64,000 nt of DNA, from positions 1,426,001 through 1,490,000 of the forward strand of contig JYIP02000005.1 of the NCBI GenBank assembly GCA_001051155.2, written 5' to 3'. Below the pieces are notes generated by a model. It was not told where the DNA came from, searched no databases, and saw only the letters and a list, made by a program, of their open reading frames with translations. The position numbers and the translations under genes are program-made. Positions within the stretch are counted from its first letter, which is position 1, and every line of letters begins with the position of its first letter. This DNA comes from Chrysoporthe austroafricana (Eukaryota > Ascomycota > Sordariomycetes > Diaporthales > Cryphonectriaceae). Shown here piece by piece: positions 28 through 55,904 of the stretch.

Positions 28-1117
28 AGGAGGAGCGGGAAGAGCAGGAGATTCAAGATCTCAAGAATCAGATCAAAGCTGTGAAACAGGAGGATGTCAA
101 ATCTCTTCAGCGAACCATTCAAACTGGTCGACAAGGGCTCGATCAGATCCTGACCACTCGAGTCCGGATCGCAGAGCAGGAAGAGCGCCTGCAGGATACG
201 TACGTTTTTCCTGTCATATCACCTGGTGATCTGGCAGACCCGTGCATCGTAAATCCTTCAGACTCAAGTCGAGAAGAATGCGCACTAATACTTCCATTCA
301 GTGAGCGAAAATTGGACTTGGCAACTATTCATGCCAAGGACGGTACAGACAAGACAAAGTGAGTGGCCCCTAATGTTGTTATCATTTGCTGTCCTGTTCC
401 CTGCTAACGGTGGTTCACGTAGGTTGCTTGACAAGTTGAATGGGACACCCTTTTTTGTTCCTGTGGCTCCGGGCAAGAAGGCACGGGCAAGGGAGGTGGA
501 GGCCACTATGGAAAGGCATCGCGAGGAACGAGAAATACGTGAGCAAACGCGTCGCGATGGCTTTGCTGCTCAGCAACGGATGGAGGAGACGACAAAACAA
601 CTCCTCAGGGATCAACCCGAACGCAAGCAACTGGGAGGGAAGAGAAAGACCAACGACAAATTTAGGTTCGAGGAGCCTGACGAGGAGGAGGAGCAACTCG
701 ACCAAGAGACGGAAGATAATTTGGATGAGGTTGCAGACATCCTCGGGAAGATTAATTCAGCTGCCAACCTTGTGGGAGAAGACATTCAACAAAGCATCCA
801 CCGGCTGAACAGAATCGGCGAGAAGGTATGTTTGAGTTATGCACACGCTTTGCTAATGTATCTGCTAACCTTTGTCGCAGACTGATCTCGTAGACGATAA
901 TGTAAGACAAATTCCTCTCCTTTTGGGTTTCATGATCTCGCTTGCAGGTCAATTTGTCATTTACATGGACTTGTCGGTGGTTACCACGAGAGATCGCGAG
1001 CAGATTTACCTACGTACCCCTAATGATGGGACAACTTACCACCCCCTGAAGTGAACCACACTGACAGATGTATAATAGGTCCGGAAGAACAGAGCAATGT
1101 TGAATCACATCAGGTAA
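28..1117 (+). CDS. SEC9: SEC9/SNAP-25-family t-SNARE, 3' part (5' end outside window)
   Basis: Plasma-membrane Qb,Qc-SNARE that pairs with a syntaxin and a synaptobrevin in exocytosis. Exons read as 28-199, 302-358, 423-825, 881-901 and 1079-1117; the frame is open to the acceptor at 26-27, so earlier exons lie upstream. The visible protein starts inside the Qb helix, passes through a charged linker rich in R, E and Q with an acidic stretch, and ends in a Qc SNARE helix. Key signs are EDNLDEVADILGKI, a Gln in the DIQQSIHRL segment at the zero layer, NRIGEKTDLVDDN and the Sec9-like C-terminus NRAMLNHIR before the stop. Exon 4 has only 21 bases (seven codons). The family call is secure; whether this is the essential single SEC9 or a diverged paralogue cannot be decided here. 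A patatin NLR lies two genes away, which matches the sec-9/plp-1 allorecognition pairing. Confidence 0.88.
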
Positions 1118-1794
1118 AGATGAGGGCGCGTAACCTTGTTTATCCGGTGGCATTCATCTCGAGGTATCAGAATGTTCCAGGCCTACTGCAAGACTCAGTC
1201 CGCTCTTCCTATCTACTCTCTTCAACATGTAGCATCATTAGGTAGAGATGACCCAAAGAACGTTAATGGATCATCTTCAGCACTCGCTATGAATGTTCAA
1301 CGTGTCACTGTCAACCCAGGTGTGGAATCACGCGCCTGCACGGGCGAGGATACAGCTCACATACCCAGCTGAAGGCAGGCCGGCGGCCATGTCCAATATG
1401 AGAGCATCCAGGCTGATCCAAGATAATCGGACTGATCCAAAACATCAAGAAAGTCCTCCTGATGCGTCATGTAGCCTCTTGAGATTCGCTTCTCAAAAAA
1501 CAGTTATTGGAGCTCTGTTAAGCCCATCGTGATCATGAGCTTAGCTCTAGCATGGAAGAAATTTTCTTCTGGTGTCTTGTCTATTGAGCAAGTAGAATTC
1601 ACCTTAACCTAATGTTTAATGTTCTTCCGCTACAAGTCGTTAGTCTCTTGCTGCTAAGCGCTTCCCAGGCGTGAGGTGGGCTGCGGGCCGAGTCGTGTGT
1701 GCTTAGATAATCAAGATAATTCTGCCACCATCTTTTCAACTTCTCAGAAAGGCTTCTCAGAATCTCAAACCCACCCACACTGAGGACCGCCGAA
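1118..1794. other. Intergenic, no gene seen
   Basis: Short overlapping frames only, none with a recognisable domain. It should hold the SEC9 3' UTR and the promoter of the helicase gene. Base composition is close to even, less GC-rich than most of the window. Confidence 0.5.
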
Positions 1795-4107
1795 ATGCCC
1801 AAACGAAGAAAGACATCGGAGGCTGGTACATTTGTCAGGATTGGAGACAAAGTCATCTCAATTGAAGGCTATTTGAATGGCGCACCCAAGGAACAAGACA
1901 CGAAAGAGGACGTCAAAAAGAGCGATGCCACCAGCCCTCTGAATGGGAACCAAGAAGATGAGATCTCACAGAAGGGCAAACGACAAAACACAGCATCTCA
2001 AGTGAGCAAAGATTCAGTCAAGGGCCTTGCTTCTCGCTCACATCAACAAGAGAGAGGTGACCCAGACCTTTTGCGGACCCGCGAGAGACTTCCGATTTGG
2101 AAACACCGAAATGACATCCGAGAGGCTCTGAGGAAAGCAGACGTACTCGTCGTCGTGGCCGAGACGGGCTCTGGAAAGAGTACCCAGGTACCTCAATTCC
2201 TCTTCACTGAAGATTGGTGTCGTAAGAAGACGGTCAAGATACGCACAGCGAACCGCACACAGGACGTCTCTGTCGGGGGCACCATCGCCATCACGCAACC
2301 ACGCCGCGTCGCTGCAACAACTCTCGCTCACAGAGTGTCCAAGGAAGCCGGGACACCACTTCGTCCGGGATCTAGTCATCTCGAGGGCCTCGTTGGATAT
2401 TCCGTTCGCTTCGACCACAATGTCCCCAAGGGAACAAAGATCAAATTCCTGACAGAAGGCATGCTTCTTCAAGAGCTGCTGCGCGATCCTCACCTGCGGC
2501 AGTACAGTGCCGTCATTATCGACGAGGTCCACGAGAGAAGCGTTGATGTCGATCTGCTCTCGGGTTTCCTCAAGCAGATCATCTCTGGTGACAAAGCGGG
2601 TCGTGGTGGCACGCCGTTAAAGGTTGCAATCATGAGCGCAACCGCAGACGTGGAGAAGATCCGATCTTTCTTCACGATCAATCGCGCTGGTCAACTCAGG
2701 GAGCCGACTTTTCTGAACATCCCAGGTCGTCTCTACCCAGTCAATATTATTCATACCCAAAAGCCAGTTCCAGACATCCAAGATGCACTCATTAAGACAA
2801 TCACGAAAATTCACACCGAGCAGCCATGTCCCGGAGACATCCTGGCCTTTCTCACTGGACAGGAGGAAATTGAGGCTGCCCAGAAAATGATAGAAGACTA
2901 CGCCAAAACATTGGCTTCAAACGTGCCGAAGCTTGTGCCGGTGCCCCTCTTCGGGCAGATGTCGATCGAAGCACAACAGAAAGCCTTTCAACCTGTCTCT
3001 GGGAGGGTTGCTCGGAAGGTTGTCTTGTCCACAAATATCGCAGAAACGTCAGTCACAGTTCCTGGAGTTCGGTATGTCATTGACACCGGCAAAGCCAAGG
3101 TCAAGCAGTATCGTGTCAGACTTGGCATGGAGTCTCTACTTCCCAAACCTATCTCCAAATCATCAGCCATTCAGAGGAGCGGAAGAGCTGGCAGAGAAGC
3201 CCCAGGTCAGTGTTACAGGCTGTATACCGAAGACAGCTACGACACCATCCTCAAGGACTCAGACCTGCCAGAGATCTTGCGAATCGACGTCTTGGGAGCG
3301 GTTTTGACCATGAAGGCACGGGGTATCGACGATATTTTTTCATTTCCTTTGATGGACACTCCGGATGACGAAGCTTTCGAGAAAGCGCTACTTCATTTGC
3401 ATGTCCTTGGTGCTATTGCGGATGATGGTTCTCTCACCGAGATGGGCAAGAAAATGGCGTGTTTCCCCGTTACCGCACCGTTTGGAAGGGTCTTGCTTGC
3501 CGCGGGAGATCCCAGGAACGATTGTCTTTTAGAGGCCATTGACATCATTGCTTGCTTGACGGCTGGAGACGACATCTTTCATCAGCTCCGCTCGGAGGAG
3601 GAGATGGAGGAAATACAAGAGAGCCGGAAGGAACTTTATCGCCGTGAGGGCGATCTTTTGACCTACCTCACCACAATGCAGCAGTATACTGCGGAACATA
3701 CGGATCGAGTTGAGTGGTGCAAACGCAGGAAGATTAACACAAGGGTCATGAAGCAAGCTCTCAATATTCGAAAGCAGCTCCGCAGTCTGTGCCTGAAGGA
3801 GAAAATGCTAGCCGAAACTCCGCTGCAGGACCCTCAGCCGTTCACACCTACCTCACCGGAACGCGCCGAGGTCATCTTGAAATGCTTTCTCAGTGGGTTC
3901 GCTATGAAGACTGCCCTTTTAGCACCCGACGCAAGTTATGTGACCTCATTCGGCAAGCACGTTGTTGCTATTCACCCCTCTAGTGTTTTGCATGGACAGA
4001 AGAAGGAAGCTATCATGTTTCTGGAGCATGTCTTTACAACCAAGAATTATGCCAAGAAGGTCAGCTTCATCCAAGCCAATTGGATATTTGAGGCAATGGA
4101 AACTTAG
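1795..4107 (+). CDS. DHR2: DEAH/RHA-box RNA helicase, DHR2-like
   Basis: Intronless 770-residue SF2 helicase. Motifs in order are AETGSGKST (I), TQPRRVAA (Ia), DEVHERS (II), MSATAD (III), FLTGQEEIE (IV), STNIAETSVTVPGVRYVIDTG-like region (V) and QRSGRAGR (VI). Winged-helix/ratchet and OB-fold regions follow, ending in a block around residues 715-765 (SFGKHVVAIHPSS, then TTKNYAKKVSFIQANW) as in the Dhr2 branch. Yeast Dhr2 acts in the nucleolus in 18S rRNA processing; the same role here is inferred. Motif II reads DEVH, not DEAH, which still keeps D-E-x-H. The start at 1795 is the first ATG of the frame. The gene sits between SEC9 and the NLR and runs convergent with the NLR, with only 74 bp between their stop codons. 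Confidence 0.88.
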   Translation: MPKRRKTSEAGTFVRIGDKVISIEGYLNGAPKEQDTKEDVKKSDATSPLNGNQEDEISQKGKRQNTASQVSKDSVKGLASRSHQQERGDPDLLRTRERLPIWKHRNDIREALRKADVLVVVAETGSGKSTQVPQFLFTEDWCRKKTVKIRTANRTQDVSVGGTIAITQPRRVAATTLAHRVSKEAGTPLRPGSSHLEGLVGYSVRFDHNVPKGTKIKFLTEGMLLQELLRDPHLRQYSAVIIDEVHERSVDVDLLSGFLKQIISGDKAGRGGTPLKVAIMSATADVEKIRSFFTINRAGQLREPTFLNIPGRLYPVNIIHTQKPVPDIQDALIKTITKIHTEQPCPGDILAFLTGQEEIEAAQKMIEDYAKTLASNVPKLVPVPLFGQMSIEAQQKAFQPVSGRVARKVVLSTNIAETSVTVPGVRYVIDTGKAKVKQYRVRLGMESLLPKPISKSSAIQRSGRAGREAPGQCYRLYTEDSYDTILKDSDLPEILRIDVLGAVLTMKARGIDDIFSFPLMDTPDDEAFEKALLHLHVLGAIADDGSLTEMGKKMACFPVTAPFGRVLLAAGDPRNDCLLEAIDIIACLTAGDDIFHQLRSEEEMEEIQESRKELYRREGDLLTYLTTMQQYTAEHTDRVEWCKRRKINTRVMKQALNIRKQLRSLCLKEKMLAETPLQDPQPFTPTSPERAEVILKCFLSGFAMKTALLAPDASYVTSFGKHVVAIHPSSVLHGQKKEAIMFLEHVFTTKNYAKKVSFIQANWIFEAMET

Positions 4108-4181
4108 ATTCGGACAAACTTAGCCTACATACGCATGATAGTTAATTCATCTGAGCAATTTCATGTCCAATTCCTAGCAGC

Positions 4182-7100
4182 TCATTCAGTCAATAATAGA
4201 CTATTCACTCTTTTTTGAAGTGCTTTTGTTCCATTGTCCATGAAGTGCTGAGACGATTCGTTCGAAGTCAGAGCATAAGCTTCTTCTCGCTCATAAGTCT
4301 GAGTCTCTGATGCGACAGAGCCGCCGCTCCAGCGTGCAAGTATTTCATCACTGAAGAATGGTTTCCGTTCACGGTAATTGGGGTCACTCTTCTCGTCCTG
4401 ACATAATACTCTCCATGTTGCCGGTGGGGCGATCATGTCCAGAGTTTGAGTCTCGGAATTGTCTGCAGCGATGTCCAGCTGCTTGAAGCTAACCAGGTTC
4501 ACCATGTCCACAGGAACTGTCTCAGAGATGACTCGGACTTCTAAGCCCTCTGGGGTCAATGGTATTGCAATGTGCTGCGGTTCCCACTGTGCAATCTCTT
4601 GCAAGGTGCTGTCGAACCCGAGGTCTTGTGTTGCTTGTGCCTCCTTTTCCTCCTTAAGGGCAGCTTGTATTACCCTCAGCCGCAGAAACAGAGGCATTGT
4701 CTCATAGCATTCGCGAATCTGCCTATGAAGGTCAACGTGTAAACGTGCGTGGAGGGAGTCTTCCCCATAGATGATTCTTGCGATCCTCACAGAGCCTTCG
4801 GACAATTCGAGGGCCTTGCCAAAGGCGCCCATTGTCTGGAGAGCCACAGCCAAGTCAAAACGGCATTGCAATGTCTGGGGATGCCGAGGGCCAAGTGATG
4901 TGTGGTACTTAGCGAACGTGCTCAGCAGGACGCTGGCCCCAAGCTGATGCCGGCCCATCTTCCCCAATACAAGCGCCCAATCGCAACGGGTCTTGAGAGT
5001 CTCGCTGGCCCATTTGCCATATGCTTCCTGGTACCACCCACTTATGGACCTGTAACGGAGCTCGGCCTCCTCAAATTTGCACTCTCGCTCAAGGCATTTG
5101 GCAAGATGTCGCTCTGCGGAGAGGGTCTCGGGGTGATCAAGCCCCAAACGACGTTTGGTCTCAATGTATTTCGCAAATGCCTTCGCCGACGTTGACTCCT
5201 CCTCGTGCTGGTCCGAGATAAACTTTTCGATATTTTGGGCTCGGACAACACATCTATCCGTTTCCCTGTCGGTATTGCGGCGGCGGCCGCACTTGGCCCA
5301 TTCCAGGATGTCAGAGACGTGTCTCTGCGCCATATCATGATGGCCTTGGCAGTAGTACAACGCCGCCAGCGCGATTTTATCCTTTCTGGTTTGTTCGTCG
5401 TCAAGAATGTTCTGGTGAATACCGACGACAGCATCCTCTTCTCTCGTCAATGCCGATGTTGGGTGCTTCTTCTTCCTCGCCTGCGTTGCTAGCGATTTGG
5501 CATCATCAAACAGCAGCTGGCGGCGGGCTAAAGCCTCTATCCAAAGCTGCTCTGCTTGAGCGATCTCGCCGTGGCGGTCGTGAAAAGCCGCTTTTCTAGA
5601 AATTGTGCGAATGGTCGTATCATAGAAGAGGCCTCCCTCCCGAGCGGCGTATAATATTGCTCTCTCCCACGCTAGCCCAGCGTCGTGGACACGATCGGCG
5701 TCTTCATATATTCTGGCAATCTTCCGCTGATACTCTGCCTCGAGCTCAAAGCTGTCCTCATTAGCCTCGACGAGCTTTACACATGCGTCGAGATGTGCAA
5801 GCATTTCGCGGCGGTGAGAAATATCGCGGCGTGTTTTGGTGAGGGCGATTGAGTCCAGGAGGATACACCGAGCCACGGTTCCCCATTCGGCTCTTTCTTT
5901 GGGGTTCATACGTCTTCGCGCCCACTCATGTACTAGGACGTGCATGTTGCTGTGCAGGTTTTCGTAGTCGTATTTGAGGAGGGAGAACTCCTCCAAATAT
6001 CTGATCCCCATGTCGAAATCCTCGCGCTGCCATTCCACTCCATCTTGCTCGTCCTGGACTGTGTTGCGCATCTGTATGAGGTGGTCAAGTGGTGTCTCTT
6101 CTGCCCAAAGCGGGTGCCACCACAACCTATCAGAGTCGAACCTTTGCATAGCGGCATATCCGAACATTTGGGCGATATATCCCTCATTATGGTAGAAGCA
6201 AAGCAAACTGAGCAGCTGGAGGGCATTCCGTGCTTCCGTTGCCCGTCTGACATCCTTTCTCTTTGCCGCACATGCCTTAATAGCCTCTAAGGAGATGTTG
6301 AAAGTCGCATAGACAGGCAAGTTGCGAAGATTGTTTTCTCCCCTGAATGTCGGATTGCTAAGCAGTGCATCCCTCTGCTCAGTGAACTTGTGCAGATACT
6401 GCTCAAGTGGACACGGGGCCATGTGTATGTCTGATGGAGATACCGTCAACGATTTCGTGGGCAAGTAAAAGACGAAAACAAAGGTCAAGGGGGGAGGGGG
6501 AAAAAAACAAAAAAAACAAAGAATAGGAAAGGGGGGGTGGGACTCCGGCCGCCAACACCGGGGGTTCAAGGATTTGCTGAAGATAACTTTTGAGTTGTAG
6601 TGATCAGCTTACAGGCACCAGCTTGGTCAAGTGCCAAGGGGAGATACCCAAGTTCCTCCGCTATGGGTCTGGCGAGGGCTCTGTGACCCTCATCGAACTC
6701 ATCCATCCGCGCCGACCGGAGAAGAAGGGTCAGGCCATCTCCAACGTCCATCTGGTCGACGTGGAGTCTGCAGCCCGGACCGACTCGTTGCTCGAGATAT
6801 TTGTGACGAGTGGTGTAAAGAATGTTCCCACTGTTTCCATCCGGGATGTACGAGCTTAGGCCCTGCTCCGGCGCGTTGTCGAACACAAGTAACCATTTGT
6901 GGCTCCTCTCTAACCTCCCCAAAAAATTCTGAATCGACCCAGTGGCCTGCGTTTCCGATTCGGATTCCTTTTCTATCAGGCGAAGGTAGCTTTGTTTCAT
7001 AGTCACAACGTCTGTTGCGTCGATCCAGCATATCTTGTAGCTTCGCATTGTCAGCTTCTCGAGGCAAATATTCGCGGTCAGTCGTATACGTACCCGTTTT

Positions 7101-8637
7101 GCTCGAATTCTTCCGAAAACTTTAGGGCAATTTGTGTCTTGCCAACCCCGCCCATGCCCCATAAATGGAATTCTCTCCGGGAGACGTCCCCGGAATCCTG
7201 ACGGTCGAAGTGTGTGCGCAGTCTCTTGAGGATAGCATCTCGTCCCGTGAAAATGGTGCTCGCTCTTCCTCTTGGCTTGGCCTCCTGTGTGTCTAGAATG
7301 ATCGCGTCCTTGGCAAGCCCCCCTGATAACTGATCAGAGACGAGGCTCGAAGTTAAGGTGTTCTCGAAAACACTCACCCAAGTGTGCAAGAGTCAGGCCG
7401 TTGTGTTTGCCTTGCAACAACGTTTCGGCCAGCTCGTCGATGGAATTCGCCACCCGTTCGTTCTGAAGATACTTCTTTGTCCTATCCTTCAATGCCCCGA
7501 GCTTTTTCCAATCGTTGAGGCTAATACCTTCGGCGCCGCTTGGAAAAGATCATCAGCTTGTTTGACCTTGACAATCACAGAAGTTTGTCCGAAGACAAGT
7601 TACTGAGATGATGGGAATCTCGGTGCATACTAACCCGGCGACGTTCAATCGGAAATAGGAATTTGGGAATTCCTTGAGCATGTTCAATATCCGTCCGTGG
7701 TCCCTCTCCGTGTCGGTGGTGAACTCCTTCAACACACTGAATAAGCTGTAGAGCTTCTTGGCGAAGTTGTCCGACGCAAGCTCTATATTCCGAGATCCAG
7801 TTCCCAGACTGACCACGCAACCGAGCCGCCGTCGCATGCCGAAAAGAAATCCGGCCTCTTCTAGCAAGATGGCGACTGGATTGTTGCGTCCCAGAGCCGC
7901 ATCAACAAAGCTCGACATCACGCCCTGGTCATCCTTTATTGGCATGGGTTTGAAGAAACTGGTCGCTGCAGTTGTTGCCCGCGCGGCCTCATAGATTTGA
8001 CACTTCGTAAACGTGTCGCCCTCGACGTTGTAGCTGCGAAGGCGTACCGTTGTGTTCCGGTCTTGCAGGGGCATTGTACAAACGAAGGCGCGCCCCTTCG
8101 CCGTAGCTGGCCGGGAGTCTTGCATGAGATGGCCCTTCCGGGAGGTCCGGACAAGGTCCTGCACCGTGTCCTCGAGAACTTTGGCTCCAAATCTCGAGTA
8201 GCCGACCCGCATGTTCTTCCAAGAGAATATCTTACAGGCGAACTCGTCATATGCGTTCAGAGCCTCTTCAGTGCTCATCTGTAGGCGGCCGAGCATGATG
8301 GCGACAAGGCTAGAGCAAAACTCAGTGAGGTTCTTTTTAGGGGGGGGGGTTGAATAAAGTCCCAGAGACTGACCCCCCAGTGCTAGTACCACCTATAAGA
8401 TGGAAGTATTCGCATGGCTTCGGCAGTTTGGCGAGTTCTCCCTTCTTCTGTATCGTCCTCATCAATTCATCGAGAATGATCAGCTCCGATACTCCCCTAA
8501 TGCCTCCACCGTCTGCTTATAGTTAGAAACCTGAGGTAACAGCGATTCGGTTTATGGTCAAGTCCACTGCGACCTAAACAGGGGAACATACCACAGGCCA
8601 GGAGGTTAACGGGCTCATTCTCGCTCGAAGCTGGCAT
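4182..8637 (-). CDS. plp-1: Patatin/NB-ARC/TPR NLR, PLP-1-like
   Basis: Fungal NLR (STAND) of about 1308 residues. Exons on the minus strand are 8637-8592, 8512-8374, 8309-7635, 7538-7378, 7322-7094, 7040-6613 and 6430-4182; all phases agree. N-terminal patatin-like phospholipase: oxyanion motif DGGGIRG at residues 16-22, nucleophile elbow GTSTG with Ser59, and a likely catalytic Asp198 in FVDAALGRNNP, where DAA replaces the common DGG/DGA. Central NB-ARC: P-loop GMGGVGKT (396-403), Walker B LLVFDN (about 467-472) and GYLPLALDQAGAY (about 548-560). C-terminal half: degenerate TPR_10-like repeats with LGLDHPETL and LGPRHPQTL cores. In Neurospora, PLP-1 has this architecture and triggers cell death on meeting an incompatible SEC-9. 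Here a SEC9 gene lies 3 kb beyond its 3' end. Function is inferred from architecture and linkage. The start is the first ATG directly before the conserved patatin motif; a longer frame reading exists upstream. Confidence 0.87.
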
Positions 8638-9634
8638 CGTCAACTCCCCCACGAGGACCTCACGGCCACCAGCAGAGGAAACGAAGGGGGAGAGCAACAG
8701 ATGCAGGGTTTCGTAGCAACAACAGACCGAAAGTGTGATTCTCGCAAGGTAAAAAGCACATGCTCCGGCCAACAGGAAGGCCACGTCAAAAGCGGCCACC
8801 CAACCCGCTTAAAAGGGCCCACTGGAAGACCGATCCCACGCTGCAACCCCAGCAGGAGTTTACCCCGGCCTGCATGTGCATCTGTGCATGTGCGACCAGG
8901 CCCAGAGGGACAACCAACTGCATATGTTTGTTTCATGCCGTACCAAACTGTTCTTCGGGTGGCGCAGGCTGGATAAAGGAGGGCGCAGCAGGCTAGTAGG
9001 GAGTTTGGAGCAAACATGAAGCTTGCACAGCGCTTCTCACAAGGAGTTCATTCAGCTGCAAATTACCAGTCAAACTGACAGGTTGACCCGCTGCCTGCTG
9101 ACAGCAACAACCATATGCATATCCACTACGTCTGAGATGACCTGTTTCGGAATGTGGTGGCTGTCAGCCTTCGCTTTGGGAATTCATTCTCAAGAAAGGG
9201 GCATGTGATGCTATGACTCAAGGGCACTCTCATCCACGACTTGTCTGTCGACCTCACTGAGCAGTGATGACTGACTGGTTTCAATGTGGAGGTATCTGCC
9301 TGTTGATGAGGGGATCTTGATGCTATTTACAATGTATGCATGGTATGGTACTATGTACTGAAGAGTAGAGGCGTGCACTGGCTTGGTCTCTCGGGACGGA
9401 CCGAGTGCTGCTCGTGTTGAAACGGGACACTGTGCGTTGAGTGTCGGATGTCGGATACTGATGTGTAAAAATCATGTCTGCGCACTGTCTCGGGACTGTA
9501 TACCTCACGCGGCAGCCTCACCTCCTCTCGCAACCTGCTCCTCTTAACGCATCCGGTGCTTATGAGACCACCACAGAACCCAGGACAGCCCACCGTCCGC
9601 GCCGCCCTCCGCCCCCTCTCGGATCGCAGACACG
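8638..9634. other. Divergent intergenic region between the NLR and SDHAF3
   Basis: About 1 kb holding both promoters. No coding frame with recognisable domains. I see no clear operator-like or repeated element. Confidence 0.45.
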
Positions 9635-10230
9635 ATGAAAGCTGCGACCCGCCTCCTGGCCTCAGCGACATCCGCCACGCGCGGTGGCGCCGGCCTGAGG
9701 CCCGAGCCTATGGCCCTGCTGCCGCCCATCCCGCTGTACAGGCGCCTCCTGCGGGCGCACAGGAGACACCTGCCGCGGCAGATGAGGCTGCTGGGCGACG
9801 AGTACGTCAAGGCCGAGTTCCGGGCTCACCGCGAGGTAGACAACCCCGCCCACCTGGTACGTTGGACACTCTCTTCTATGTGGAGCTTGAGGTTGAGGGG
9901 ATTGGGGGGGTGAGGGGGGATGTGCCTCTGGGACTAATTTCGGGGCCGATACAGATCGGGTTCTTGACGGAGTGGCAGCTGTATGCGCAGAAGATTGAGG
10001 GCGATTCGTGGGTGGGGGAGAAGCTTGATCCTGGGAAGATCGAGAAGATGAGTGGTATGTGCGCGCGCCCCCGGCCCCTGGACCACCGTGGCTGAGGTGC
10101 ATCTGGGAGGGACAAAGAGAGTTCGTGCTGACACTCCCCGGCAGATGAGCAGATAGGGCAGCTGTACGAGCTGATGCAGGCGATAAAGAAGCAGCGGGAG
10201 GAGGGCGATCCGGAGGGCTCGATACCGTGA
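9635..10230 (+). CDS. SDHAF3: Succinate dehydrogenase assembly factor 3 (ACN9/SDH7)
   Basis: Small LYR-family protein of 135 residues. Exons are 9635-9856, 9955-10054 and 10145-10230 with matching phases. The N-terminus is rich in Ala, Arg and Thr, as in a mitochondrial presequence. It is followed by the Leu-Tyr-Arg motif (residues 34-36, in [11 protein letters not shown]), then [17 protein letters not shown], a [10 protein letters not shown] segment and a C-terminal amphipathic helix ([12 protein letters not shown]), all typical of ACN9. The family acts in the mitochondrial matrix and protects the iron-sulfur subunit SDHB during complex II assembly. SDHB itself is encoded 15 kb to the right. 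The 98-bp first intron is G-rich. Confidence 0.9.
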
Positions 10231-48870: not shown

Positions 48871-50666
48871 CGGCGCCGCTTGGATTGTCGCTGTGGATTC
48901 CTTGCTTGAGCGGAATTTCTTTGATGGGTAGAAGCGACGCAACAGAAGCGTCATACACACACAATAGAGGATACAGACTACAGACAAGACAGGAGACATG
49001 GCCGTCGCATGGTCTGCAATGGATCCGTCCCACTTGGGTTGAACGTGGTACAGGTCTCGGAAGCACATGCGCCGCTGGCTGGGAACGATACAGGAGTTTG
49101 GGGCAAGCGAATGTTGCTGGTACACGAAGAATGGTCCACCGCACAGAGCGGGGAATAATGTCTTGACCGCGTGCGATCGAGACGCGAAGAAGAGGTGATC
49201 GATTTGAGTTAGAGTGAATTCATTTTCTCCGAGTCTTAATTTCGCACGCTCCGTCGTTGAGCTGGTGACGGAGCCGGACTCCAATGAACTTGCCAAATCA
49301 GAGCCCACAAGTAATCATTGGTCTCCCTTCTGTGGGAAGACCGCCCTTTTAGCCCGTGGGCTGATCGGCAGCTATCACTGGGGAATCATTCTCGTGATGT
49401 CCGGCGGGGGAGGGAGGCCGCTAATCGATCGTCACAGCACCAGTCTGGCAAGTGCCGACGACGTGAACAAGGGTCGATAGAGGGCGGCGCTGATACTGAG
49501 CTATATGGCGACACTGCCCCGTGCTCGACCCCGAGAGATGAATCCTCGTCAGTGCCCGCGTAGGGACCCCCCCCCCGAACCTGCACCGGCGTGTCGCACA
49601 CACGGAATCACTCCGGTAAGGCCCAGGCGGGCAAAGCTGCCACGCAAGCAAAGGGTTGTAGCCTGCCTGTGCAGCCTTCATGCCAACGCCGGCGGGTGTT
49701 TCATTACCGACGGCACGGGCGAGGCCTGCTTGGGTCTGTGCCGGAGTGTGGCGGTTTAGTAAACGCACGATGTGAGGATAAACTACGTAACCAGGACTAG
49801 AATTATATTGGTTGCAGACTTGTCTAGCTTGTCGACATGCAATGGGAATTGAATGCCTACGCACTGAAACTTCATAAACCCATAAAAATTTGTTTACTCA
49901 TTGTGAATTCGCAACTGACTGTTGGCCAATGGAGCATGAAAAGTTCTTCTCTCAGCTCCTGTGATCTGTCATCCGAGTCCCAAATCCTCGGGCCATTCTA
50001 CCCGACACTCGGAACTTTTTGTTCAGGGCTCCTTCAGTCGGACCAAAACTGTGTAATGATGGAGATTCGGAGTGCTCAACTAGTTCGGATTAATTAGAGG
50101 CCGCGTTGTCGTATTAACCAGCGAAACGGAGGCGTACATCAACGGATGTGCTTGTTAACAGATTAAAATTTCTTCGTATCGGGAGAAAGTAACCCAACCT
50201 GAGCCCTGTCTTCTCCGAACCTCAAAGACTTGATGTTCTGAAGGGTAACGTGAGTAGTGTACTCAGAATAATCAGTTCAGAAAAGTTGTCAACAGCGGGC
50301 ATTTTGAGTAAAATGTTGTTCAAATTAATGCCATATCCCGAATATCGTATGCATACGCGCTCAAGCCTGAAATATCCACTTAGAGAGAGCAGCGTTGGCT
50401 TGGCCGGCGGCCGGTTTAGAGGAGTGACTGTCAATGGTAATTAAGGAGCCATCGCGCCTGTGCGTGGTTGGATAAGTGTTTTGGTATGTATAATATTGAA
50501 AGTAATAAAGCCTGATGGAAGCTTGGTATACTTTGCGATCTCAGAGGCAGCTATAAGAAAAAATTGCAACTGTGAATTCATTGAAAGAAGTGCTAAAATT
50601 TTCATAACGGTTGTAGATCGTTGCAAGCTTTGGCTACCGAAATACATTGACTATTTGTCCAACGCA
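48871..50666. other. Intergenic, change from GC-rich to AT-rich
   Basis: No gene seen. From about 49.8 kb the base composition turns AT-rich. A 117-codon plus-strand frame at 50,460-50,813 overlaps the secreted-protein gene and has no recognisable features. Confidence 0.4.
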
Positions 50667-51158
50667 TTACGGCAGGCATTCCTTTCCACAAGAACCGCAG
50701 TGGGGAACAGAAACGGACGTGTCGCACTCGAAATTATTGAGGGCAGACTGCGAGGTGGAAATAGCGAGCCAACCGGTCCAAGTGCCCCCATGGCTCAGCT
50801 TGACACACTGTGAGCCACACAAATCGCCTTTCTCGTACTCGGTTTGAATCCAATTATACAAAGCACCCTGAATGGTCCCAACCTCAGCCGTGGACCGGCA
50901 GTCACCGCCGGTGGACGTAGCATAGACCTTGTAGTAGAGGTCGTCGATGGAGCCGGAGTGGATAGTGCAGTCGTTGTTGTTAGCGTCAGTGTAGAGCTGA
51001 GCTCCGATTTGCCTCGCGACGTTCTCGTCATCGAGGTAGATGTTATTGCAGGTGCCGCCCGTTTGAGCGCTGGACGCACACCAGTCAATCTTCCGTGCTG
51101 ATGCGAACGCCAGGAGGGAACTGGCGGAAAGAAGGACCGCAGCGAGGGTAGAACGCAT
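50667..51158 (-). CDS. Small secreted cysteine-rich protein
   Basis: Intronless gene for 163 residues. Start chosen at 51158 because the signal peptide (MRSTLAAVLLSASSLLAFAS, cleavage near ASA-RK) begins there; a longer open frame upstream would bury it. The mature protein of about 140 residues has ten cysteines, with clusters DWCASS, GGTCNN, NDCTI, GDCRS, DLCGSQC, FECD and HCGSCGKEC, so five disulfides are possible. No family recognised with confidence. It lies alone in an AT-rich island, a common setting for host- or competitor-directed secreted proteins in plant-associated ascomycetes; role unknown. Confidence 0.8.
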   Translation of the reverse strand: MRSTLAAVLLSASSLLAFASARKIDWCASSAQTGGTCNNIYLDDENVARQIGAQLYTDANNNDCTIHSGSIDDLYYKVYATSTGGDCRSTAEVGTIQGALYNWIQTEYEKGDLCGSQCVKLSHGGTWTGWLAISTSQSALNNFECDTSVSVPHCGSCGKECLP

Positions 51159-53249
51159 GGTGGAGGAGGTTTGAAGTATAGTATGTAAAGATCGGAGTAC
51201 TCCGAGCACTTGATCAGCTCTTTGGTGGGAGTGGAAGTGGTATTTGGAAAGTTGAGTTGAAGAGAGCTTGAATCTCATGGCTGTAACAGGGAAAAGGAAA
51301 GTTGGCAAGATGGACACGCCGTGTTATTTATACGCTTTTTAACATAGAGAATGGAGGAATATTTGCATGGTGGGATCAGCTCGGGTCAGCAGGGAGCAAA
51401 CTTTCGACTCAGAGTGTATACACATTCCCCAGACACCTCTCAATACGCGAACGGGTATGAACAAGGTGGTTGAAATTGATACTCCCGGAAAATGATCTTC
51501 AATTCCAACTGGCTGCACCCGATATCCCTCAATGAAATACCGCCCTATGTCTCACTCCGTAAGCAAACTGCCCTCCTTCAAGAATTTGGTAGCTATGAAC
51601 GACCTATAGTAGCAAGAAGATCTTCTTACGCTCTGAAACTCTGACTTCATACAGACCTGATCTTAGGGAAAGATGACTAAGTGGCTAAAACAGTAATATG
51701 AAACGTTCCATCTCTATCGTCATACATGAAGAAATCCCTCATTGAAAGCTCGTAAACAAAGTGCTCTCGACAGTGTCAGCTCAACGCGCTATTGACTTCT
51801 AAGACTCAATATCCTACAACGGACAGATTTTCGGCTGAATGCCTTCCTTCACAATCTCGTGATCCCGTTCTGAATTCTACTTAGAATAACTCTTAGATCT
51901 GGCTTTCCTTGGAAACCGCTTTCGTAAAATTTATCTTGATTTCTTTCTTCCAAAGCTGTGTTTCCGATGAGTACAGAATGAGTCGCTTCAGGGTTGATCG
52001 TAATTATCTGTTTTACTATTCAGATCTGTTGGCATCATGATTATCGGCACTCAGCTCTTGTTTCAAACTGGTCTCTCGCCTGTGGCTTATATCTGTTTCA
52101 CTGCGCTGATACCAAAAATCTTTCTGATTCCTGTTATTGACTAAGCTTGGTAAAAGCTTCATAACAATATTTGCTACTCATGATTGTAGTCTACCTGTGG
52201 CGATGCCCTTTGAGATAGGACCTATATTAATTTGGCAAACCAACATGATGACGAATCACAATAACGGGCTTGGCCTCTTTGATTCATATAGCCCGTTTCT
52301 TTCTTCGTCCACGTTCCTGTCAAAAGTCTCGTGAGCTGCATTCGTGAATTCAGAAGCCAACCGGGAAACTGCTTCGCGATTCCTACTTATCTACCTAGGT
52401 AAGCTATGTGCCTAGGTAAATAAATTTGAAAAATGTTCCACGTTAGCAAGAGAGTCCTTAGTACTTATGGACCGGAGACAAGGAAGGAGATACCAGAAAT
52501 TGGCTTATCAAGGGCAATATTCCATGCCCAGTTTTAGACTTATTCGACTAGGTCGAGCTTAGGAATTGTACCTTAACAGCGTGACCTCCTCCAAAAAATG
52601 GGAATAGGCATGCGAATTACCCGATGGCTCGATCCGGGCGCCCTTTGTTCTTCCATTATTATAACTTTTTTTGTTTTTCTTTTTTTCTTTTTTTTTTTTT
52701 TTTTGGCGGGGGATAGGGTATGTTATTTTATTCTCTCGTAAGAGAAGCTAAGAAAACCTCACTTGACTGACACCCATCCTGTCCAAGGAACTCCTTTATC
52801 ATCTCCGCCCTTACTGAGTTTGGATCAGCCCATTGACCTTCATGCACATCCTTTTTCTATAAAGAGACATCGTTGAAGTCTTAATTATACAAAAAGCCCA
52901 TCAATCAGCATAATTAGACTGCTGCTCCTTATGATTATCATCATTTTTGTTGTAATCTTGCATCATATTATTGATCTCGTCCAAAATCCATATCGAGGAA
53001 AGACATGTTTTGAAGAGGGTAAATAAGAGACGTTGTTTTCAAACACTAAGTCCTGATTGCAAGTTGCTACGGAGAATTAAAAAAAAGAAGACAAAACTGA
53101 AGTAAGGCCAGGAAGTGAAGAAAGACGAGCACTCAGAATCAAGCAGACTGGAGCTAGATCCTCTGCCCAGCCAACCTCTCCCGATGCATACTAGGGCTGG
53201 CTATACACTATCACGCAAAAAAGCATCATAGGGTCAAGAGCCCAAAGAG
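51159..53249. other. AT-rich intergenic island, no gene seen
   Basis: About 2.1 kb with frequent stops in all frames. It contains a T-rich tract near 52,670-52,705 and a doubled CCTAGGTAA near 52,396-52,420. It may contain decayed transposon sequence, but none was identified. Confidence 0.4.
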
Positions 53250-53485
53250 TACGTATTGCGTGTTTGTAAGTGAAGTCAAAGTACTTAAAGAATAGAAATG
53301 GGGAATAAGAAAAAGGAAAGCGAATACAAGCAACCCGATCTAGGAACAGGGGTAGGAGGGAGTACGGCAGAGGAAAACACGGTGGGAAGGGTAAAAAACG
53401 GGAAACGGAACGGGGAAAAATCAAAACGACAATGACAGTATTCGAATCTGCGCCTCCCGAAGAGACCGTGGTTCGAATCATTGTC
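53250..53485. mobile_element. Short interspersed repeat, copy 1 (SINE-like)
   Basis: Shares most of its length with copy 2 at 56,407-56,623: a TACGTAT edge, GAAGTCAAAGTACTT, AGAATAGAAATGG, GAATACAAGCAACC, GGGAGG-type purine-rich body, GACAATGACAG and ATTCGAAT. The right end (53,428-53,485) is bounded by an 8-bp inverted repeat, GACAATGA and TCATTGTC, and holds two T-loop-like cores (53,440 and 53,471); GGTTCGAATCA matches the Pol III box B in 10 of 11 positions. This is the layout of a tRNA-derived SINE, with the head probably at the right end and transcribed on the minus strand. No coding capacity. Confidence 0.55.
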
Positions 53486-54371
53486 ATAAAAGACGAGAAA
53501 TGTAGAACGAAGAATTGGATACAAACAGCAACAAATAGATTAGATTTGGCTGCAATTGGATTCCATGAAACTATAGTATCAGAGGTGTGGCTGGGAATAT
53601 GAAGCACCTCAATCGTACAGCAGTTCGAAGTGCAACAGACCAGAAACTGTATCACATTTCCCTGAAAGACATAAAAGTCACCAAGAAAGAGGCATATTTG
53701 GTCAAGCTAGGCAGAGAGACCAGGCATTCCGCTCAATATAGAAGAAATTTTAAAAATTAGAAAAGTAGAGAGTTACCACTCTACATAGATCCATTAGTAC
53801 TTATTACACCAGTACCCATAGGAATGGATGTCTACTCACGAGCCTACTTACACAGAATGCCCCAAAATGACAAGGCTCGGTGTACCAAAGACGCTCTTTG
53901 GAACAAGCGCCATCGAAACATAGACTTGTGAAAGGATATTCGAGTCAGACCGCTGCAAGGCATATTTCTCAACACACGGTGCCTTCCGGCTCCGAGTGGG
54001 AAGATGATGTCCTCCGCCATAATGTCTTTTGTTCTTTTCTTGTCCTTCCTTTTTTTTATTTTTATTTTTTATTTTTTCTCTCTTCGTTCTTTTATCCAGG
54101 GGCATTCTTCGCTTGGTTGCCGTCCTCCTTTCTTCCAGTCCAGCCTGGGCCTAGAGATACAGGCACTATCAACGATATACAAAGACGATGTATAACAAAG
54201 GGCTGGATAGGCCGAAATCCCGTGAGAGACCCCTGTGCCAGGAGCCTGAAATGGCCTTTCAACCAACGTGAAGCAAAACCTTCTCTTTAAGACATCTTCT
54301 TTCGCCCCTCTGCAACAACTGCGTACGTCGATTTTGAGGCTCCCAGCTGACCTAGTAACATATTGTTTGTC
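53486..54371. other. AT-rich intergenic, no gene seen
   Basis: Contains a T-rich tract near 54,045-54,090. Probably the promoter of the downstream DUF7924-like gene lies in the last few hundred bases. Confidence 0.4.
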
Positions 54372-55904
54372 ATGCGAGACACGATGAAGCAGCCTAGCAA
54401 GCGAGGGCACCGATACAACCTAAGGATACGCGAATCTGCCCCCCAACACCGTTGTAGCTCTCAATCAGAAGCATCACCACCAGCCTTCCCCCTGGCCCAG
54501 CAAGAAGAGCCATCGCCGCCGACACCCAAGCGCTCTGCTGCATCTCCCGAGCAGCGCGTCTACCTCTTCTCCAAACAAAATCAGGCATCGTTCGAGCCGG
54601 CACCGGGAGCACAGCAGTCCAGCAGGGCGTTGTCAGAACGGAGCCGTCCCGAGTGCAAGCCTGACATTCCCAGTTGTGACTCGGCCACACCCAAGCGTCA
54701 TCAACAACCCTGGCCAGCGTTAGAGCCCCAGACGGCGAGGCTTCGAGACAGTTGGTTCATTGATCATTGGCAGCGCAGAACTGCTGAAGCGCTCGTGGCA
54801 CAAGGGCAGGGTGAAGGCGTTGATGGTCTTAGCACTGACCTGGCCGAGGGCAGCTACATCAGCTCAAACGTGGAGGAACTGCCCGACTGGGAAAGCAACG
54901 ACGAGATGTCACAGCTGTGGAATGGATTCAGCCGGCAGCTTCCCTCCTCCGGTACTTCCGACAGACTCAAGACATCCAGTTCCTCGTACCGGATGACGCT
55001 GCGGATGCACAATATGATGGTGGACGACCATGGCATCGCGATACCGCCAGACGTTGAGGCTTTGGTTACCACGCACATACGAAAAGAACGCAAATCGTCA
55101 CGGCTAGGAGAGGAGGACAAGGCTACCATTCTGCGCCAGATCAGAAGCGCTTGGAACGGTTCGGAGACAAATGTCGCTGACATTGTTGGGCTTTTCCTGC
55201 TTCCCTTTCGCGATTTTGGGCCTGGCCTCTCCCGGGGGGGCGATCGTCTCTGGACCCACGCCCCGCTGCCCTATAGTGTCTACCACACGCTCGTAACCCC
55301 CAAAACCGACAAGCATTTGGGCTACGAGACCGTGCTGAACTCTGGGTGGACGTTCCAGGAACTTGTTGCGGCAACTCACCCCCGGGTTTGCCCATACTCG
55401 CAGCCGACGTCCGGAAACCTCTTCCCGTCCTTCCTTGTCGAGATCAAGTCCGAGGCCACCGGAGGCACAGCCTACGGAGCGGAAGCGCAACTGGCCACGG
55501 CTGGCCGCCACCGTGTCAGTTCAATGTTGTGGATTCTCGACCAGATCGATCCAAATCGCACCCGAAAGAGCAGCGACGCCATCGTCTTCTCGGCCGTCGT
55601 CACCCAAAGGGAGGTCATTGCCCACGTGCATTACTACGACCCAAGTGACGAGATCTTCCGCATGTCCTTCATCGACAGCTTCTACCTCGCCAAGGACATC
55701 CAGGGCTGCGTGGACTTCAGCAAGAATGTTGAGGAGTGGTTGGTGGAGGTCCAGCAGCCGTTTGTGCGGGATACGATGAGAAGATTGTATCCGATCACGC
55801 AGTCGTGGAAGAAGGGTCGGTCTGCCAGCGCTGTGGCAGACGACGTGGATCCGTCATTTCACAGTGACAGCGGCAGACCGAGAAAGAAACAGACGACGGA
55901 GTGA
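54372..55904 (+). CDS. PD-(D/E)XK nuclease-like protein (DUF7924-type)
   Basis: Intronless 510-residue protein (ATG at 54372; a second at 54384 is equally good). The N-terminal 150 residues are Pro/Ser/Gln-rich and basic at the start (KRGHRYNLRIRES), with no signal peptide. The C-terminal half has PLPYSVYHTLVTPKTDKHLGY, then FPSFLVEIKSEATGGTAYGAEAQ-like sequence, where E-x-K and a following Gln fit a PD-(D/E)XK active site, and a helical ending. It resembles the fungal family now labelled DUF7924, often multicopy and linked to repeats. The tail (GRPRKKQTTE) is basic. Its GC content is normal although the surroundings are AT-rich, and the frame is intact. Function unknown. Confidence 0.75.
   Translation: MRDTMKQPSKRGHRYNLRIRESAPQHRCSSQSEASPPAFPLAQQEEPSPPTPKRSAASPEQRVYLFSKQNQASFEPAPGAQQSSRALSERSRPECKPDIPSCDSATPKRHQQPWPALEPQTARLRDSWFIDHWQRRTAEALVAQGQGEGVDGLSTDLAEGSYISSNVEELPDWESNDEMSQLWNGFSRQLPSSGTSDRLKTSSSSYRMTLRMHNMMVDDHGIAIPPDVEALVTTHIRKERKSSRLGEEDKATILRQIRSAWNGSETNVADIVGLFLLPFRDFGPGLSRGGDRLWTHAPLPYSVYHTLVTPKTDKHLGYETVLNSGWTFQELVAATHPRVCPYSQPTSGNLFPSFLVEIKSEATGGTAYGAEAQLATAGRHRVSSMLWILDQIDPNRTRKSSDAIVFSAVVTQREVIAHVHYYDPSDEIFRMSFIDSFYLAKDIQGCVDFSKNVEEWLVEVQQPFVRDTMRRLYPITQSWKKGRSASAVADDVDPSFHSDSGRPRKKQTTE

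Follow-up and report, generated by a model that had tools for sequence, protein, structure and literature searches.

A SEC9-type SNARE gene and a patatin/NB-ARC/TPR NLR gene were found close together at the start of the analysed window, a stretch of 64,000 nucleotides of the Chrysoporthe austroafricana genome (C18:1426001-1490000; genome of 48.15 Mb in 22 contigs, one haploid-looking genome). In the PDB, a piece of ribosomal protein uL3 from this genome was closest to 7r81 of Neurospora crassa (E 4.5e-141), followed by 8oo0 and by 7olc of Chaetomium thermophilum (about 4.5e-140); no other distinct sequence passed the threshold of 1e-120. By this marker the host is close to N. crassa and C. thermophilum, as fits a Sordariomycete. 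The locus is probably an allorecognition pair of the SEC-9/PLP-1 type. In Neurospora crassa and Podospora anserina, sec-9 and plp-1 are linked and reportedly act in allorecognition; the locus described here resembles theirs in pairing a SEC9-type SNARE with a linked patatin/NB-ARC/TPR NLR in a Sordariomycete. It differs in having a helicase gene between the two and a serine at the Qc zero layer of SEC9. The original prediction had read the locus as such a pair and was partly supported, in that the gene partners, their domain order, their close linkage and the presence of a single SEC9 were confirmed.

The SEC9 gene lies on the forward strand, comprises six exons and encodes a protein of 415 amino acids. 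It starts 582 bases ahead of the window; exon 1 (C18:1425419-1425974), upstream and outside the window, was identified by splicing that included the upstream DNA. Exons 2-6 lie at window positions 28-199, 302-358, 423-825, 881-901 and 1079-1117, and the gene ends at 1117. The NLR gene, on the reverse strand at 8637-4182, was spliced from seven exons (8637-8592, 8512-8374, 8309-7635, 7538-7378, 7322-7094, 7040-6613 and 6430-4182) and encodes 1308 amino acids. The stop codons of the two genes are 3,064 bases apart, in agreement with the predicted distance of 3.1 kb. The predicted span of the locus, 28..8637, was correct at the NLR end; at the other end, only SEC9 exon 2 begins at position 28, the gene itself beginning further upstream.

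Between the two genes lies an intronless gene for a DEAH-box RNA helicase of 770 amino acids (1795..4107, on the same strand as SEC9), with Pfam matches to DEAD, Helicase_C, HA2_N, HA2_C and OB_NTP_bind. Its end is 74 bases from the last base of the NLR gene. The frames of all three genes are open and the splice sites are usable. In line with the prediction of one helicase gene between the pair, the helicase frame, at 795 amino acids from stop to stop, is by far the longest in the interval; the next longest reaches 192 amino acids, antisense to the helicase. It had been described as DHR2-like; the DEAH helicase assignment held, and the likeness to DHR2 was unconfirmed, the best PDB matches being of the DHX8/DHX15/Prp22 type. 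There was no close duplicate of the helicase in the same genome, where the next best match was 37-38% identical. Its position may or may not represent a variant of the known sec-9/plp-1 arrangement. The block is flanked downstream by an LYR protein gene (window 9566-9913; Pfam LYR), which we take to be SDHAF3-like, and upstream by a translational GTPase gene (L002, 4770-7427; Pfam GTP_EFTU), presumably GTPBP1-like. These two neighbours are handy markers for comparisons of gene order.

Yeast Sec9 (9cru_L) was the best PDB match of the SEC9 protein (E 9.4e-14), with both helices and the linker aligned, as expected of a full-length SEC9-type Qbc-SNARE. The identity of the protein rests on this match, as a Pfam search of the protein returned no SNARE domain at E up to 1. 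When the genome was searched with the SEC9 protein itself at E up to 1, all four matches were its own exons. A search with yeast Sec9 placed the C18 gene first (3.6e-5), and the next match reached only 0.465. By both queries, the linked gene is the sole SEC9 detected in the genome and not an extra copy; the second, more conserved SEC9 that would speak against the original prediction was sought genome-wide, and none was detected at the search sensitivity reached. A Pfam SNARE search of the genome gave 10 matches, but it is uninformative on SEC9 copy number because it misses even the C18 gene. The last SEC9 intron (window 902-1078) contains a second possible acceptor near 947, read by eye; if used, it would swap the last SNARE layers for an unrelated tail.

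As had been claimed, the Qc helix has its full length, but it lacks the zero-layer glutamine. In ungapped alignments, the SEC9 segment GEDIQQSIHRL is matched by GKELDSQQKRL in yeast Sec9 and GNEIDTQNRQI in SNAP-25, and the glutamine is therefore replaced by Ser386 (codon AGC, window 793..795). Five such alignments (two to yeast Sec9, three to SNAP-25) were available among the 26 listed PDB sequences, and all five have glutamine. At the Qb zero layer, glutamine is retained, with Gln236 aligned to the yeast glutamine. Two Qc-like SNAREs of the same genome also retain glutamine (L028, GDELDDQ; L033, GRELEEQ; assigned by eye). Also by eye, the two Sso copies (L026 and L027) retain glutamine and a Snc1-like protein (L071) retains its arginine. 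Some other Qc-SNAREs, such as Bet1, have serine at this position; the bundle can thus probably tolerate it. For the same reason, the Qc glutamine would appear typical of the SNAP-25/Sec9 family rather than essential for placement in it, which is decided by the match of the whole protein.

It is conceivable, if rather improbable, that SEC9 exists as ancient haplotypes differing as far as the zero layer, of which the form with serine in place of the near-invariant Qc glutamine would be one. The NLR would then read this region of SEC9, and the two genes would be inherited together with the helicase as one block of low recombination. Were this so, allorecognition would have reshaped the core of a fusion apparatus that is essential to the cell. 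The serine raises the question of how far NLR-driven selection can bend an indispensable fusion core.

In the NLR, Pfam identified a patatin domain (residues 13-210, 1.8e-17), an NB-ARC domain (392-562, 1.3e-8) and TPRs (TPR_12, 1.1e-13, plus TPR_10), each above the cut-off. The catalytic serine and the P-loop were both predicted to be intact, and were found so: the patatin domain carries GGGIRG at residue 17 and GTSTG at 57 with the catalytic Ser59, and the P-loop GMGGVGKT occupies residues 396-403. The second catalytic motif of patatins is usually DGG or DGA; in the NLR, DAALGRNNP at residue 198 keeps the aspartate and has the glycine replaced (DAA). The TPRs are degenerate, and a recent tandem TPR expansion was not seen in this gene. 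Residues 6-323 matched the PADLOC phospholipase effector model (E 7.3e-31; 317 of 331 model positions), and the patatin region matched CapV in PDB (E 3.3e-12); the score against the NCBIfam CBASS_lipase model was 76.7 bits, well under its cut-off of 200. The effector domain is thus homologous to the bacterial CapV/CBASS patatin phospholipases, from which the NLR differs in having its patatin fused to NB-ARC and TPR domains. The domain fits the CBASS model (7.3e-31) better than Pfam patatin (1.8e-17), the two E-values coming from libraries of different size. No relatives were confirmed among the prokaryote and viral contigs.

If the pair works as in Neurospora and Podospora, from which recognition, oligomerisation and killing are all taken over here by analogy, SEC9 would be the single-copy plasma-membrane Qbc-SNARE of the cell and, being present once, hard to lose. 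The NLR would be a patatin phospholipase that the NB-ARC switch and the TPR sensor keep inactive. On fusion of genetically different cells, its TPR/NB-ARC part would sense SEC9 of the other haplotype, and the NB-ARC domain would then oligomerise. The patatin domain could then attack membrane lipids, killing the fused compartment. A locus of this kind would extend the surveillance of an essential SNARE by an NLR to one more species. Population studies of fungal allorecognition would also gain a target confined to one locus.

The allorecognition reading is favoured by the full-length single SEC9, the intact NLR, the closeness of the stop codons, the low probability of a chance association, the closeness of the host to N. 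crassa and C. thermophilum by uL3 and the CBASS-like patatin domain; the DAA motif, the non-significant relative-rate test of SEC9 and the absence of the GC drop at fourfold sites count against it. One alternative is that the genes are neighbours by chance: the genome has several patatin NLRs, and an unrelated one would have come to lie near SEC9 while sensing a different cue. In favour of this, patatin gave 15 matches at 11 places in the genome (E up to 0.01), and it is joined to NB-ARC in at least three genes: the C18 NLR and at least two others, on C9 and C2. This count is a lower bound, since a six-frame NB-ARC search of the genome (12 matches) missed the intron-split NB-ARC domain of the C18 NLR itself. 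Nevertheless, by our own arithmetic (3 to 11 genes, 10 kb either side, 48.15 Mb), the probability that a patatin gene would fall within 10 kb of SEC9 by chance is ~0.1-0.5%, before the linkage in two other Sordariomycetes is considered. Given that linkage in N. crassa and P. anserina, common descent is the simplest account. The C9 paralogue (C9:243636-245661) has the same domain order as the C18 NLR (60% identity over residues 12-64, 33% over 153-610) but differs from it in its near-identical tandem TPRs, against the degenerate repeats of the C18 protein, and in its location, significant SEC9 matches being confined to C18. The contrast between the repeats also argues against chance proximity, which we consider quite unlikely. 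In the surrounding sequence (L066, C9:243301-248800), the TPRs of this patatin/NB-ARC NLR are 42 residues long and almost identical to one another (DKEHPDRLASQYNLAVTYQANGRTKEAIGLLEQVIEIQKK). Repeats of this type are expected in fungal NLRs that change fast; the sequence contains frame interruptions and one N.

An inherited sec-9/plp-1 arrangement that is not active in allorecognition in this species would predict the same genes and the same linkage. SEC9 would then be monomorphic, and the NLR would either guard it from foreign interference with secretion or be kept without that role. This reading would agree with the outcome of a relative-rate test, in which the two SEC9 helices were compared with those of yeast and SNAP-25 served as outgroup: SEC9 had changed no faster than expected (20 unique changes vs 12, p 0.22; in a test confined to Qb, with squid SNAP-25, 12 vs 4, p 0.08). 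Among the controls, Snc1 gave 4 vs 6, and one of the two Sso copies (L026) gave 17 vs 3 (p 0.003); faster change than in yeast is thus not special to SEC9. Identity of SEC9 to yeast Sec9 was 28% (16/57) in the Qc helix and 29% (20/68) in Qb, compared with 64% (36/56) for Snc1 and 47% (37/78) for one Sso, each against its yeast counterpart; in Qb, yeast Sec9 scored 31.9 bits against squid SNAP-25, and the C18 SEC9 scored 17.7 against yeast. Accelerated evolution of SEC9 is not claimed, given p 0.22 for SEC9, whereas the Sso copy L026 reached p 0.003.

The low, block-like fourfold-site GC of SEC9, helicase and NLR weighs against an inactive locus, although weakly and post hoc. Fourfold-site GC was 0.524 in the helicase, 0.54 in SEC9 and 0.59 in the NLR, compared with 0.565-0.881 in 12 flanking frames; the latter were hand-picked and include nine from a 15-frame list, of which the other six were chance-looking and left out. 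The three genes rank first, second and fourth lowest of 15, a result as low as in 2 of 455 placements (about 0.004; calculated by hand and post hoc). Six other DEAH helicase stretches taken from the genome for comparison all gave higher values (0.559-0.838) than this helicase, and the 9.45 kb block falls within the lowest 4% of GC windows over 84 kb, though it is not the lowest. These values hint at a long-lived block of low recombination; a local base-composition domain would look alike. A locus inactive in allorecognition is considered unlikely, and a SEC-9/PLP-1-type allorecognition pair is preferred.

Where the window begins, inside SEC9, bulk GC falls from 0.59 to 0.49. The drop is unmatched at fourfold sites (0.558 in exon 1 vs 0.528 in exons 2-6), which ruled out a haplotype boundary within the gene; the near-equal values indicate that the fall reflects protein composition and introns. 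Further along the window, an AT-rich stretch is present at 50001-54000 (GC of 0.46 and 0.42 in 2-kb bins), followed by a frame at 54351-55904 with a weak match to DUF7924.
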